A stretch of 37,624 nucleotides of DNA from Patescibacteria group bacterium. GTDB taxonomy: Bacteria; Patescibacteriota; Patescibacteriia; Buchananbacterales; GWA2-38-13. Shown here in pieces: positions 21,100 to 28,798 of this stretch. The translations under genes and the position numbers were made by a program. The notes below the pieces were generated by a model. That model had not been told where the DNA came from, searched no databases, and was given only the letters and a program-made list of their open reading frames with translations. Within the stretch, counting starts at the first letter, position 1. Every line of letters starts with the position of its first letter. Where the stretch lies: NCBI GenBank assembly GCA_028712155.1, contig JAQTQO010000013.1, positions 1-37,624 of the forward strand, written 5' to 3'.

Positions 21100-22101
<1,002 letters not shown>

Positions 22102-22116
22102 CTACCGGCTATGAGC

Positions 22117-23127
22117 TTAATGCACCAGTTTATCGGCCAGCCCCGCGGCCTTCAAATCCGCCTCCATCATAATCCGCACCAGCTCTTGGAAATGAACCTT
22201 GGGCTCCCAGCCGAGTTTGCGCCGGGCCTTACTGAAATCGCCCTGCAATAACTCGACCTCTGACGGTCGGAAATACAGCGGGTCGATGCCGATATACTTT
22301 TCCCAATCGGTAATGCCGACCAGCCGGAATGCCTCCTGAACAAATTCGCGCACGGAATGCGCCTTGCCGGTGGCGATGACATAGTCATCGGGGGAATCCT
22401 GCTGTAACATCCGCCACATCGCTTCCACGTACTCGGGCGCATACCCCCAGTCGCGCCGCGCTTCAAGGTTCCCCAGGTAAATCTTGTCACTTTTTTTGGA
22501 AATCAGGTCGGCGATGCCGCGCGTGATTTTTCTCGTCACAAAAGTTTCCCCGCGCCGCGGCGATTCGTGGTTGAACAAAATTCCGTTGCAGGCGTACACC
22601 CCGTAGCTTTCCCGGTAGTTCACCGTCATCCAGTACGCGTAGACTTTGGCCGCGCCGTAGGGGCTGCGGGGGTAAAACGGCGTGGTTTCTTTCTGCGGCG
22701 TCTCCACCGCCCGACCGTACATTTCGCTCGACGAGGCCTGATAAAACCGGCAGTTCACGCCCGCCTCACGGATGGCTTCCAGTAAACGGACCGTCCCCAG
22801 GCCGGTGACGTTGCCGGTGTACTCCGGCAGGTCGAAACTCACCCGCACGTGGCTCTGCGCGCCCAGATGGTAGATCTCATCCGGTTGAATTTTGGTCACG
22901 AGTCTGGCCAGGGCGCTGGAGTCGGTCAGGTCGATGTAGTGGAGGAAAAACCGCGTTTCGGGGCGGTGCGGATCGGCGTAAAGGTGATCGATGCGGTTGG
23001 TGTTCAGCGAACTCGAGCGGCGGATCAGGCCGTGCACTTCGTAGCCTTTGCCAATCAAAAGCTCCGCCAGGTAGCTTCCGTCCTGGCCGGTGACCCCGGT
23101 AATAATTGCCTTTTTCATGCTGCCCAT
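22117..23127 (-). CDS. gmd: GDP-mannose 4,6-dehydratase
   Basis: The protein has 336 residues, the usual length. NADP-binding [15 protein letters not shown] is at 10-24, [15 protein letters not shown] at 36-50, [13 protein letters not shown] at 92-104, the active-site SSSEMYG at 132-138 (Glu135), and Tyr157/Lys161 in [29 protein letters not shown] is diagnostic of the family. It makes GDP-4-keto-6-deoxy-D-mannose in the cytosol. ATG 23127 gives a 14-base leader from the promoter at 23148-23176; ATG 23118 is equally possible. Neither has a strong SD. GDP-mannose itself must be made elsewhere, since no ManB or ManC homologue is in the window. Confidence 0.95.
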
Positions 23128-24100: not shown

Positions 24101-24138
24101 CCGGGTAGCGATCCCAAGATCGCTACCCGGATTTTTTT
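24101..24138 (+). terminator. Strong intrinsic terminator of the HAD gene
   Basis: CCGGGTAGCGATC and its perfect complement form a 13-bp stem with a CCAA loop, followed by A and seven T (24132-24138). It begins 29 bases after the stop codon at 24071. Confidence 0.95.
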
Positions 24139-24162: not shown

Positions 24163-25419
24163 TCACCCGCCGCACTGACCGCCGCAATCTTCGCACGAGC
24201 ATACCTGCTGCGCATGCGCATCCAAAAAATTGCGGAACTGCTGCTCGAGATAATCAAGCTGCGCCTCCGACAGCCCCTGGTGGCAGCCGACCACCATCGC
24301 ATTGCGCATAATGTATTCCGTGTTCGGACAACCGCCGGCGACCATGCGGTGCGAGATCTTGCCAAACCCCGGCTGCTTGAGGATATTGCCGGTGAACACC
24401 GGCCGGGTCTGAATGTTTTTTTGTTCAAGATACTGCACCAGCTCCAGGCGGGAAAACGGCGCGCGCGGAGTCAGAATCAATGGGAACGCGAGCCACGCCG
24501 TCTGGGTGTTTTGCGTCTGCTCCGGCAGGATGAACCAGTCGTCATACGCGCCAAAAAACTTCAGCAACCGCGCGAAGTGTTTTCGCCGCAGCGCCGCGTA
24601 GCGCGGGAACTTCTCAAGCTGCACCAGGGCAAACGCGGCGGACAGTTCCAGCGGCAGGAAATTGTAGCCGATCTCGCTGAAAATGAACTTCGCGTCGTAT
24701 GGAATGCCGTGGAGCTTGGTACGGAAACGGTTCTTGAGCAGTTCCGACGCGGCCTTTTCGCCGAACAGCGACGACTCTCTCCCCCATCCCCGCAGCACCA
24801 GCAGCCGGCGCGCCCATTTCGGATCGTTGACGCAGATCATGCCGCCGCCGCCGGCGCCGTTAATGATGTGCGAGCCGTAGAAACTGGTGGTGGAAATATG
24901 CGAGTAGCTGCCCGACGGCTTACCGCCGTATTTGGCGCCCAGCGTGTCGCAAGAATCCTCGATCAGCCACAGCTTGTGCTTGCGCGCGACTGCCGCCAGC
25001 TCCCGCAGGTTGGGCACGTTGCCCAGCAGCGACGGGATCATCAATGCCCGCGTCTTTTTGGTAATTGCGCGTTTGATCTGGTCGATCTTTGCCACATACG
25101 TTCCAAGTCCGACGTCCACAAACACCGGCGTGAGGCCTTTCTGCACGATGGGCGCCACGGTGGTGGCAAACGTCAACAGCGGCGTGATGACCTCGGATCC
25201 GCGCGGCAAATTCAGCAATTCAAGCGCCAAAAGATTTGCCGAAGACCCGGAGTTCACCATCAGCCCGAATTTTTTGCCAAACAGCCTGGCGATTTTATGT
25301 TCGAATTCCTCGGCTTTATCGCCCAAGGCGGTATTGCCGCGCAATACCTTGACGACCGCATCAATCTCTTCCTGCCCGTGCAGGGATAAACCGTACGGAA
25401 CGCGCATATTCTTTGCCAT
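24163..25419 (-). CDS. DegT/DnrJ/EryC1/StrS-family PLP enzyme, RfbH/ColD-like sugar 3-dehydratase (His at the PLP-Lys site)
   Basis: This 418-residue PLP enzyme has NSGSSANLLAL at 56-66, Asp155 of IEDSCDTLGA for the PLP ring nitrogen, and SFYGSHIING at 179-188. Aminotransferases have Lys where this protein has His184. The same Lys-to-His change marks the C-3 dehydrases RfbH/DdhC (E1) and ColD. The YDAKFIFSEIGYNF block (241-254) matches RfbH-like proteins. The Cys cluster that holds the [2Fe-2S] centre in E1 is absent; that segment reads RESSLFGEKAASELL. The protein ends instead in CSCEDCGGQCGG (407-418). Likely substrates are CDP-4-keto-6-deoxyglucose (rfbF/rfbG are nearby) or GDP-4-keto-6-deoxymannose (gmd is nearby). 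No E3 reductase is visible. No SD is seen; TACAAT about 20 bases upstream may be its -10. Confidence 0.8.
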   Translation of the reverse strand: MAKNMRVPYGLSLHGQEEIDAVVKVLRGNTALGDKAEEFEHKIARLFGKKFGLMVNSGSSANLLALELLNLPRGSEVITPLLTFATTVAPIVQKGLTPVFVDVGLGTYVAKIDQIKRAITKKTRALMIPSLLGNVPNLRELAAVARKHKLWLIEDSCDTLGAKYGGKPSGSYSHISTTSFYGSHIINGAGGGGMICVNDPKWARRLLVLRGWGRESSLFGEKAASELLKNRFRTKLHGIPYDAKFIFSEIGYNFLPLELSAAFALVQLEKFPRYAALRRKHFARLLKFFGAYDDWFILPEQTQNTQTAWLAFPLILTPRAPFSRLELVQYLEQKNIQTRPVFTGNILKQPGFGKISHRMVAGGCPNTEYIMRNAMVVGCHQGLSEAQLDYLEQQFRNFLDAHAQQVCSCEDCGGQCGG

Positions 25420-25557: not shown

Positions 25558-26211
25558 CTAGAGACTCCCGACGATGCGCTCGACTTTCTCGAAGTGCTCC
25601 GCTGCTGCCGGAATGATGAGACCCCGGTGGGCCCAGTTGGTATCGGCCGGGAGATTGTCAACGTCGAACCACTCTCCCCTGCTTGACCCCGAAATCCGGG
25701 CGAGCCACACTTCGCTCTGGCAATGGCCGCGGTTTTCGGCCAGCTTCTCGCGGGTCAGGATCTCCCGTGGCGGACGGATGACCGTGACGAACACCGGCTC
25801 ACCATTGAGCGGACAGCCATACTCCTTCTCCACCAGTCGGCGGAACACGTCCGGGGGCAATTCCCCAACGCGGGTGATCGAACCACCGCAGTGATACTGG
25901 TTCGGGAAAGCCTCGAGAGGACCGCGCCGGAGCAAAAGCACTTGCAGCTTACCGTTCGCCGGATCGCGGCGCAGGCAGACCAGTTCGACGGCCACGCTCA
26001 CGCTCCGTAGGGCGATTGCTTCGTAGAGCTCCTTCCCGTAGGGCGCGAACGGGTCGATGAGTGCCAAGGCGGCGGCGACGGTACGCTTGACCTGTTCGTA
26101 GAACGCCTGATCCACATCCCTGGCTTCATTCAACGCGCGGACTGCCCGTAGAAACTTCTCCAGTTGCGCAGGATCCACTTCCGGCGCGACTAGAATCGGC
26201 GTGTTTTCCAA
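25558..26211 (-). CDS. Divergent Nudix-like protein, monocistronic
   Basis: The protein has 217 residues and starts with TTG at 26211, seven bases after AAGGAGG (26219-26225). This is one of the best ribosome sites in the window and decides the start over the longer frame. Residues 1-65 are mostly helical. Residues 70-190 look like a Nudix fold: VELVCLRRD, VLLLRRGPLEAFPNQYHCGGSI, then a degenerate box with E117, R125, K129, E130 and G132. The usual RE reads RL and the usual EE reads KE, and the first spacing is one residue longer than the consensus. It keeps the Glu that is also retained in GDP-mannose mannosyl hydrolase. Substrate unknown; it has its own terminator. Confidence 0.75.
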   Translation of the reverse strand: MENTPILVAPEVDPAQLEKFLRAVRALNEARDVDQAFYEQVKRTVAAALALIDPFAPYGKELYEAIALRSVSVAVELVCLRRDPANGKLQVLLLRRGPLEAFPNQYHCGGSITRVGELPPDVFRRLVEKEYGCPLNGEPVFVTVIRPPREILTREKLAENRGHCQSEVWLARISGSSRGEWFDVDNLPADTNWAHRGLIIPAAAEHFEKVERIVGSL

Positions 26212-26279
26212 TGTACAACCTCCTTCGGATTGTCGGTTATATTGATGTGAACCAACGCTGTAACATAGCACGAAGGAGC

Positions 26280-26330: not shown

Positions 26331-26807
26331 CTACTTTTCCGCGAGCGCCGCCCGCACTTTCTTCCATACCCGCTGGTGCTCCCAGATGATGTCTTTGGGC
26401 ATGCGGGCGAAAAACTTTCCTTTTTTGGGAGTGCGTTCAACCGTGCAGCGCCACACCAGGGATACACCATGTCCGCGCCCGGCGCCGGGGTAATTGAGCA
26501 CGGACATAAAACGCGCGCGGGTGACGCCGACCCCGAGTTCATGGCGCGCGACGTACCGGATGCGATGCAAAAATGTTTCCCCGTATCGCAGCAACCCGCC
26601 CGGAAAATGCCAACCCCGCCAGTATTTGTCGTCGCGCCAGGTGAGAAGAATCCTGCCGTGCCGGTCTACCACCACCAGCTCGCACGCCAGAAACGGCACG
26701 ACCAAAATGAGCGCCTCAAAAATGGACTCGGGCAAATCGCGTTTCGGTCGCGCGATTTTCCCCAGCAGTGTTACGAGCTGATTTTGCTCCCGCTTGGTCA
26801 ACGCCAT
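26331..26807 (-). CDS. Nudix hydrolase resembling GDP-mannose mannosyl hydrolase
   Basis: The protein has 158 residues. ELVVVDRHGRILLTWRDD (43-60) and YWRGWHFPGGLLRYGE (62-77) lead into a modified Nudix box with E77, then Y85-V86 in place of RE, H89-E90 in place of EE, and G92. GDP-mannose mannosyl hydrolases also have a modified box that keeps only the later Glu (ELG), so cleavage of a nucleotide-sugar glycosyl bond is more likely than pyrophosphate cleavage. That is inference. ATG 26807 has no SD; the gene ends in its own 13-bp terminator and follows rfbG by 38 bases. It might recycle or balance GDP- or CDP-sugars made by its neighbours. Confidence 0.8.
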   Translation of the reverse strand: MALTKREQNQLVTLLGKIARPKRDLPESIFEALILVVPFLACELVVVDRHGRILLTWRDDKYWRGWHFPGGLLRYGETFLHRIRYVARHELGVGVTRARFMSVLNYPGAGRGHGVSLVWRCTVERTPKKGKFFARMPKDIIWEHQRVWKKVRAALAEK

Positions 26808-26845: not shown

Positions 26846-27871
26846 TCACGCGGCGGCCGGCTGATGCTGCCGGAAAAATTCATCATACCACGAAATCGTC
26901 CGCCGCAAACCATCATCGAGAGTGTATTGCGGCTGCCAGCCGAGCACCTCGCGCGCTTTTTGGGAAGACAGGTACTGCGCCGGAATTTCGTTGGTCGCCG
27001 TATTCAGAATCGTGGGGGGAAGCGCCTTGCCCATCAGCGCGGTAATCCGCTGCACCATCTCAAGCACCGTGACGGGATTGCCGCTGGCAAAATTGAACGC
27101 CTGTCCTGCCAGCTGCTTTTCGCGCAGATTCTCGGCCAACATCCGGTACGCGGCCGCCACATCCTCAATATAAAAGTAGTCGCGCACCAGCATCCCGTTA
27201 CTCCGGATGATCGGCGATTGATCGTGCCAGAGGAACTTGACGGTGCCCGGCACTACGCGGTTGAAATTCAAATCACCGCCGCCGAAAAAATTACCGCAGC
27301 GCACGATCGCCACCGGCGTCCGGTACGTATGAAAATAGCTCTGGCTGATGAGGTCCACGCAGCTTTTGCTGACGTCATAAGGGTAGCGGCCCGACAGCGA
27401 CGTTGCTTCGGTGTACGGCAAGACATCCTGATTCCCGTACGCTTTGTCCGACGACGCCACGATCACCCGCTCCACGTGCGGATTGCGCCGCACCGCTTCG
27501 AGCAAATTCCACGTGCCGCGGATGTTGGACTCAAACGTCGAGATCGGATTGCGGTTGGCAATACCAACAATGGCTTGCGCACCAAGATGAAAAACGGTAT
27601 CCACTTCGTACTCGTTGAGCACGCGCTCAAGCAAATCCCCGTTGCCCAGCTCGCCGAATACCTGGTTGACCAGCGGCAAACAACCGCACGTGTACAGGTA
27701 CGAGCGGTGCGGAATATCGCGCACCAAAATCGTCACATGCGCGCCCGCGTCCACCAGGCTTTTCACGAGCCACGGACCAAGCAACCCCGTAGCACCGGTA
27801 ACAAAAACATTCCGGTCGTACCAGAATCGGGCCGAGGCTGCGGCAATATTTCTCGATGTTTCCACTGCCAT
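26846..27871 (-). CDS. rfbG: CDP-glucose 4,6-dehydratase
   Basis: This 341-residue extended SDR has FVTGATGLLGPWLVKSLV at 23-40 (NAD site), FHLGAQAIVGIANRNP at 94-109, and the active-site SSDKAYG at 140-146, a form characteristic of this family with Asp142 and Lys143. The SDR pair is Tyr165/Lys169 in YPYDVSK, and RCGNFFGGGDLN is also diagnostic. It converts CDP-D-glucose to CDP-4-keto-6-deoxy-D-glucose in the cytosol, the substrate for C-3 deoxygenation. It lies 123 bases after the cytidylyltransferase gene, with a small hairpin between them, so the pair probably forms one unit with partial attenuation. Confidence 0.93.
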   Translation of the reverse strand: MAVETSRNIAAASARFWYDRNVFVTGATGLLGPWLVKSLVDAGAHVTILVRDIPHRSYLYTCGCLPLVNQVFGELGNGDLLERVLNEYEVDTVFHLGAQAIVGIANRNPISTFESNIRGTWNLLEAVRRNPHVERVIVASSDKAYGNQDVLPYTEATSLSGRYPYDVSKSCVDLISQSYFHTYRTPVAIVRCGNFFGGGDLNFNRVVPGTVKFLWHDQSPIIRSNGMLVRDYFYIEDVAAAYRMLAENLREKQLAGQAFNFASGNPVTVLEMVQRITALMGKALPPTILNTATNEIPAQYLSSQKAREVLGWQPQYTLDDGLRRTISWYDEFFRQHQPAAA

Positions 27872-27994: not shown

Positions 27995-28798
27995 CTACGG
28001 TTGGTGCGCCGCATGCTCCCACACTACCCACGGTCGCTGCCCGCGATCCCACATCCGGTTGATTTCCTCGTAGTGCTGGTAGGTATCCATGGCGTAGAAA
28101 AATCCTTCATGCCGGAAAACCGACAACTGCCCTTCCTGCGCCAGAGTTTTGAGCGGCTGCTGTTCGAGCACGCAACTTCCGTCCGGCGAGAGGTAGCGGA
28201 AAATTTCCCGGTTGAACACGGCGTACCCGCCGTTAATGTACCCTTCCAGCTGCGGCTTCTCGCTGAAGTTGGTCACGCGGTTGCCGTTGACTTCCAGGAT
28301 GCCGAACCGTGAATTGGGGTGGACGCCGCAGACGGTGCCGATCGTCCCCTGCTGTTGATGGAACTCCGCGACTTTGGAAATCGGAATGTCGGACAGACCG
28401 TCGCCGTAGGTCATCAAGAACGACTCGTCTTTGCCCAAGTACGGTTCAATGCGCGCAATGCGCGAACCGGTCAAGGTTTCCTGGCCGGTGTCGGCGAGCG
28501 TAATCGTCCAATCTTCAAGATGCTGCGGATGGTGGTGGCGGATGCGCTCACTGCCGTTGCGGCGCAGTGTGACGGTCACGTCGTTGCTGCGCTCCTCGAA
28601 ATTGAGGAAGTAATCCCGTATCATTTCTCCCTTATAGCCCAGGCACAAAATAAATTCCTTGAAACCGTAGTGCGAGTAAATTTTCATGATATGCCAAAGG
28701 ATCGGCCGGCCGCCGATGGTTACCATGGGTTTGGGCTTGTATTCGGTTTCTTCGCGCAGCCGGGTGCCCTTTCCGCCGCACAAAATCACGACTTTCAT
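27995..28798 (-). CDS. rfbF: Glucose-1-phosphate cytidylyltransferase
   Basis: The protein has 267 residues. The nucleotidyltransferase signature LCGGKGTRLREETEYKPKPM runs from 6 to 25, with the family's GGRPILWHIMKIYSHYGF following. FILCLGYKGEMIRDYF, FLMTYGDGLSDI (metal-binding Asp), HPNSRFGIL and YINGGYAVFN are all typical of RfbF. It makes CDP-glucose from glucose-1-phosphate and CTP. It begins only 26 bases after the T-tract of the previous gene's terminator, with no SD, so it needs either read-through or a leaderless promoter in that short gap (AATAAT lies 9 bases before the ATG). Confidence 0.95.
   Translation of the reverse strand: MKVVILCGGKGTRLREETEYKPKPMVTIGGRPILWHIMKIYSHYGFKEFILCLGYKGEMIRDYFLNFEERSNDVTVTLRRNGSERIRHHHPQHLEDWTITLADTGQETLTGSRIARIEPYLGKDESFLMTYGDGLSDIPISKVAEFHQQQGTIGTVCGVHPNSRFGILEVNGNRVTNFSEKPQLEGYINGGYAVFNREIFRYLSPDGSCVLEQQPLKTLAQEGQLSVFRHEGFFYAMDTYQHYEEINRMWDRGQRPWVVWEHAAHQP

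Follow-up and report, generated by a model that had tools for sequence, protein, structure and literature searches.

The gene at 24163-25419 of the window (the whole 37,624-nucleotide stretch of contig JAQTQO010000013.1, from a Patescibacteria group bacterium) encodes a relative of RfbH/E1 and ColD that has histidine in place of the PLP lysine and has lost cysteines of the E1 iron-sulfur center. The locus raises the question of which reaction such an enzyme catalyzes, and how. The initial annotation offered two answers: it works like ColD without Fe-S, or its cysteine-rich C-terminus supplies Fe-S or metal binding in a new place.

Residues and phylogenetic position

The gene reads from ATG to TGA on the minus strand, encodes 418 amino acids and is the sole open frame of the reported stretch. 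Its features, with groups as defined by the tree below, are:

24163-25419, minus strand: Fe-S-free, His-type DegT-fold enzyme of group A, in the sister clade of E1/RfbH (ORF, RfbH profile, tree, model and fold search)
24946-24951, minus strand: codons of Cys157 (E1 C193) and Asp158 (E1 D194) (alignment)
24868-24870, minus strand: codon of His184, which replaces the PLP lysine (alignment)
24736-24774, minus strand: Ser216-Leu228, which replaces the E1 ligands C251, C253 and C261 (alignment)

The protein has the DegT/DnrJ/EryC1/StrS fold (Pfam, 251.6 bits). Against the NCBIfam RfbH model it scored 348.7 bits, under the cut-off of 423; four other group A proteins scored 297-352 bits, a group B protein 400 bits and three Fe-S-type RfbH proteins 703-783 bits. 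The best solved relatives by sequence are Yersinia E1 (3bcx) and then ColD (2gms). When the predicted model was searched with Foldseek, E1 (3bcx) was the top match (TM 0.83); a sugar transaminase ranked ahead of ColD, which was still among the next best.

Residue equivalences were taken from the alignment to Yersinia E1. His184 is at the PLP-lysine position and corresponds to E1 H220 and ColD H188, which confirms the substitution described in the initial annotation at the correct coordinates. Asp158 and Tyr181 preserve E1 D194 and Y217. The ligands of the E1 [2Fe-2S] cluster are C193, C251, C253 and C261. The cluster cysteines had been described as absent. This holds for C251, C253 and C261, which are Ser216, Leu218 and Leu228 in the window protein, but not for C193, which is retained as Cys157. 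ColD has the same cysteine, and Cys157 is therefore uninformative about a cluster. Besides the three lost ligands, the window protein differs from E1 in lacking about 35 N-terminal residues and in a one-residue insertion in the Gly-rich loop past the histidine. It shares with ColD the histidine for lysine, the serine before it (ColD S187) and the lack of Fe-S cysteines, but the two are only about 30% identical, and the residue that follows the conserved cysteine is Glu in ColD, not Asp.

Relatives were collected from genome contigs, same-phylum genomes, plasmids, phages and viral contigs, and a maximum-likelihood tree of 70 proteins was calculated, from which L014 (broken frame) was excluded. 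The window protein falls into group A (26 rows, support 100/99), whose sampled members are 42-73% identical. Group B (4 rows, 100/99) joins group A at 100/99, and A+B is sister to the Fe-S-type E1/RfbH clade at 100/96. ColD is outside A+B+E1 (100/98); group D, together with two Cys-bearing rows, branches next, and the Lys aminotransferases are outside every His-type row (100/97). The window protein is thus sister to, not within, the Fe-S E1 clade and outside the ColD clade. An isolated Lys-to-His change inside the aminotransferases, one of two outcomes that the initial annotation had named as refuting its proposal, was rejected, since the His-type rows split from the Lys rows at 100/97.

Every row of group A, B or D, of E1 and of ColD has the histidine, and the window protein has no catalytic lysine. 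Every group A and B row keeps His184 and E1 D194 and has lost C251, C253 and C261. E1 Y217 is also kept in these groups except in L005 and L015 (Phe), L062 (Ser) and L063 (Ala). Group A occurs in CPR-type bacteria, Alphaproteobacteria, Gammaproteobacteria (a Thiothrix MAG), Bacteroidota (a Flavobacteriales MAG) and Actinomycetota, as well as in an Acidobacteria MAG. The tree and the alignment indicate that the window enzyme belongs to a real, widespread and unnamed Fe-S-free branch beside RfbH and is not an isolated oddity; on the same sequence evidence it belongs to neither Fe-S RfbH nor ColD. When A, B and ColD were forced into one clade, the tree was 14 log units worse with an AU p of 0.052, so this grouping is only marginally disfavoured and not firmly excluded.

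A tree constrained to unite every Cys-bearing row in a single clade was rejected (AU p = 0.003), which implies more than one gain or loss of the cluster motif. The His-type proteins L043 and L074 point the same way: they are outside the E1 clade and carry cysteines at the three E1 cluster positions other than C193, which they lack. L074, together with L073 and L075, adjoins two-subunit TPP/transketolase genes. Group D (L039, L040, L041, L042, L044) is an additional His-type, Cys-free group from the phylum of the window, in genomes without rfbF. For one of its members, the closest solved protein by sequence is a perosamine synthase, despite the absent lysine.

Gene context and proposed reaction

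The neighboring features in the window are:

27995-28798, minus strand: RfbF-like glucose-1-phosphate cytidylyltransferase (TIGR02623, 312.6 bits, over the cut-off of 300.25)
26846-27871, minus strand: RfbG-like CDP-glucose 4,6-dehydratase (best family TIGR02622, 204.7 bits, under the cut-off of 278.45)
26331-26807, minus strand: Nudix protein (PF00293)
25558-26271, minus strand: Nudix-like protein that itself matched no Pfam family and shares 38% identity with a Nudix protein adjoining an Fe-S-type E1 gene (L055)
24101-24130, minus strand: strong 13-bp hairpin, 33 bases past the stop (z = -3.9)
22117-23127: Gmd, over its cut-off
21100-22047: Fcl-like (GDP-fucose-synthase-like) gene

The RfbF-like, RfbG-like and two Nudix-like genes are on the same strand as the group A gene and upstream of it. 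Promoter-like and terminator-like sites lie between several window genes, so these genes need not form one operon. Both Nudix-like genes sit between the RfbG-like gene and the group A gene. In L049 and L052, homologues of the one at 26331-26807 with 43-49% identity occur close to genes of group A and group B, respectively. Downstream are the hairpin, a convergent HAD-like gene, and then Gmd and the GDP-fucose-synthase-like gene. The hairpin is terminator-like mainly for the convergent plus-strand gene, with its T run on that strand and a weaker T tail on the minus strand.

The Leisingera, Roseibium and Palleronia plasmids have the order rfbF, rfbG, group A gene, C-methyltransferase and SDR reductase, and the Ensifer and S. 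meliloti plasmids have rfbF, rfbG, group A gene and SDR reductase. The SDR is of the 4-ketoreductase type in all five. Compared with the Salmonella order (E3, rfbF, rfbG, rfbH, abequose synthase), the group A gene occupies the RfbH slot, ahead of a reductase. Only around half of the loci with a group A gene have rfbF/rfbG adjacent to it. RfbF was found in 5 of 6 group A genomes, compared with 1 of the 20 genomes that had no match (Fisher p = 0.0005). It was present in 0/3 group-B-only genomes, 10/13 genomes with Fe-S-type E1 and 0/5 with group D.

That no E3 gene is visible, as first reported, is true of the window and extends to its genome (95.8% complete), where neither Fer2 nor FAD_binding_6 (E3-type flavin reductase) domains were found. 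A tblastn search with Salmonella E3 gave no match near any examined group A gene. None of the 9 A/B genomes has Fer2, and a single one has FAD_binding_6; the genome of the window is among the 8 that lack it. Genomes with Fe-S-type E1 contain FAD_binding_6 in 8/13 cases and Fer2 in only 2/13, so missing E3 parts alone cannot separate the types. Several Fe-S-type RfbH genes also have no adjacent E3, which makes its lack nearby weak evidence.

The review PMC8987622 lists three characterized 3-dehydratases, E1 and SpnQ with a cluster and ColD without one, the latter acting on a GDP sugar. They share the first half of the reaction, in which a Schiff base forms with PMP, the histidine takes a proton and the C3 hydroxyl is lost. 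In ColD the intermediate is then hydrolyzed, ammonia is released and glutamate recharges the cofactor, whereas E1 and SpnQ end with reduction through the [2Fe-2S] cluster (PMC8987622).

The observed residues, clade, gene context and missing partners lead us to infer the reaction together with its substrate and its use of glutamate: the window gene probably encodes a PMP-dependent CDP-4-keto-6-deoxyglucose 3-dehydratase that would be ColD-like and glutamate-driven and would work without Fe-S and without E3. The neighboring RfbF and RfbG would supply CDP-4-keto-6-deoxyglucose. PMP and the 4-keto sugar would form a Schiff base, after which His184 would remove the PMP C4' proton and the C3 hydroxyl would depart. 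The bound intermediate would be hydrolyzed to PLP and an enamine sugar, which would tautomerize with loss of ammonia, and PLP would be re-aminated to PMP by glutamate. The predicted product is CDP-4-keto-3,6-dideoxyglucose, and the step would be that of RfbH/E1 in Salmonella and Yersinia.

A ColD ending on a CDP sugar is the simplest reading, because no cluster cysteine is conserved, a reductase is next in the operon and the genome has no ferredoxin domain. The same points, together with the clade-wide histidine, the RfbH slot and the missing E3, support the first of the two initial answers, and glutamate-driven chemistry would be expected by analogy with ColD. Asp158, which resembles E1 and not ColD (Glu), counts against a ColD-like reading. 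The dTDP-sugar 3-dehydratase SpnQ is also PMP-dependent and not bound to a dedicated E3, but it has a Cys-ligated [2Fe-2S] cluster and uses ferredoxin or flavodoxin reductase systems (PMC8987622).

The main rival is a Lys-less PMP aminotransferase that places an amino group onto C4 of CDP-4-keto-6-deoxyglucose, since SpnQ can transaminate when starved of reductant; SpnQ shows this side activity with PLP and glutamate (PMC8987622). Group A members are annotated by NCBI as 'DegT/DnrJ/EryC1/StrS family aminotransferase', and perosamine synthase is among the fold relatives. We consider this reading unlikely. The 4-ketoreductase-type SDR next in the alphaproteobacterial operons fits a retained 4-keto group and not an amine, the sister clade of E1 has the histidine without exception, and ColD and E1 had no transaminase activity in the conditions used for SpnQ (PMC8987622).

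Because Gmd and a GDP-fucose-synthase-like gene are present, a GDP sugar is possible in the window. The enzyme could then have the true ColD function, acting on GDP-4-keto-6-deoxymannose from Gmd (22117-23127), with the Fcl-like protein (21100-22047) completing GDP-colitose. ColD-clade genes elsewhere do directly adjoin gmd and a GDP-fucose-synthase-like gene, and not rfbF/rfbG. This function is nevertheless improbable for the window enzyme, which is outside the ColD clade and separated from gmd by a convergent gene; moreover, RfbF tracks group A, and the group A operons of L057, L058 and L061 have no gmd.

E1-type reductive chemistry, in which an enzyme without its own cluster would receive electrons from some other donor, could be suspected from the Fe-S E1 proteins being the nearest relatives and from the match of Asp158 and Tyr181 to E1. 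The lack of an invariant cysteine in group A and of Fer2 or FAD_binding_6 in the genome of the window leaves it with very little likelihood.

The cysteine-rich C-terminus

24166-24201, minus strand: Cys-rich tail CSCEDCGGQCGG, residues 407-418, private to the window protein

The Cys-rich end reported by the initial annotation is present and in frame, followed directly by the TGA stop. In random 12-codon stretches of the window, at least four cysteines occur at a frequency of about 3e-4 (3 per 10,000), which makes a chance origin improbable and could favor a CxCxxCxxxC site holding Fe-S or zinc in place of the lost E1 cluster. The tail was not found in any of the 25 other group A members, including one of 73% identity, the closest relative in the collections scanned, and three of 67-70%. 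Absence from close homologues was the outcome that the initial annotation had named as refuting its idea of the tail. The other group A members carry Cys-free, variable extensions of 12-17 residues at this place, which indicates that the group A C-terminus drifts.

In the predicted model, residues 411-418 follow the C-terminal helix with pLDDT below 50. Matches to the tail-coding motif (TGYNNNTGY...) number 11 in the genome versus 9 in a reversed control, which is no enrichment, and among the other matches checked, none is at the end of a long frame. Across group A, no alignment column is invariantly Cys; the commonest three (157, 196 and 379) are each replaced in some members.

The cysteine density is odd, yet without conservation it gives no support for a tail function. 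A new Fe-S or metal site, the second of the initial answers, is accordingly left unsupported, because the tail is absent from all relatives, the model confidence is low and the clade has no invariant cysteine. As a general mechanism it is rejected, the tail being private to one protein, and we regard it as scarcely credible even for the window enzyme. The tail is probably a private oddity of this protein and not important.

Implications and divergent relatives

A literature search for an Fe-S-free RfbH, with most subscription papers outside its scope, returned only the review PMC8987622. If the ColD-like reaction on a CDP sugar is correct, the Fe-S-free CDP-pathway clade would be a fourth 3-dehydratase branch, and abequose/paratose-type sugars could be made without an iron-sulfur enzyme, a route that would fit reduced genomes without such ferredoxins. 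In cultured Alphaproteobacteria, Roseibium and Leisingera among them, the systematic labelling of these enzymes as 'aminotransferase' would then need correction, and the origin of E1 Fe-S chemistry would become testable through comparison of the sister enzymes.

More tentatively, groups A and B may be living Fe-S-free sisters of E1 that deoxygenate C3 of CDP-4-keto-6-deoxyglucose with glutamate only, with the Fe-S/E3 route of RfbH added later. Such an addition would mean that the cluster motif arose more than once, as the rejected single Cys-bearing clade allows; several losses would fit too.

Some relatives are found in other contexts. In L046 (1994-10802, G297:C37), rfbF, rfbG, an SDR gene, a NeuB-family gene, an acetolactate-synthase-like TPP enzyme gene, another SDR gene, a 3-dehydroquinate-synthase-like gene and a group A gene are co-directional, and by its gene content this cluster would encode an unexplained CDP-sugar pathway. 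In L049 (1460-4557, G330:C14), a 606-aa TPP enzyme directly follows the group B enzyme, an arrangement that a YerE-like branched-sugar step would predict. This genome also encodes, 13 kb from the group B enzyme, a group A enzyme that adjoins rfbF.

The actinomycete group A members of Embleya and Rhodococcus (L062, 9001-10200; L063, 8992-10215) have Ser or Ala for Tyr181. The annotated neighbors of the Rhodococcus gene are not sugar-nucleotide genes, and this member possibly has another function. Within the phage set (L067, L068, L069), Fe-S-type E1 genes are present in Synechococcus phage S-H68 and in an uncultured phage, and Synechococcus phage S-CAM7 encodes a His enzyme resembling ColD, adjoining gmd and fucose synthase.
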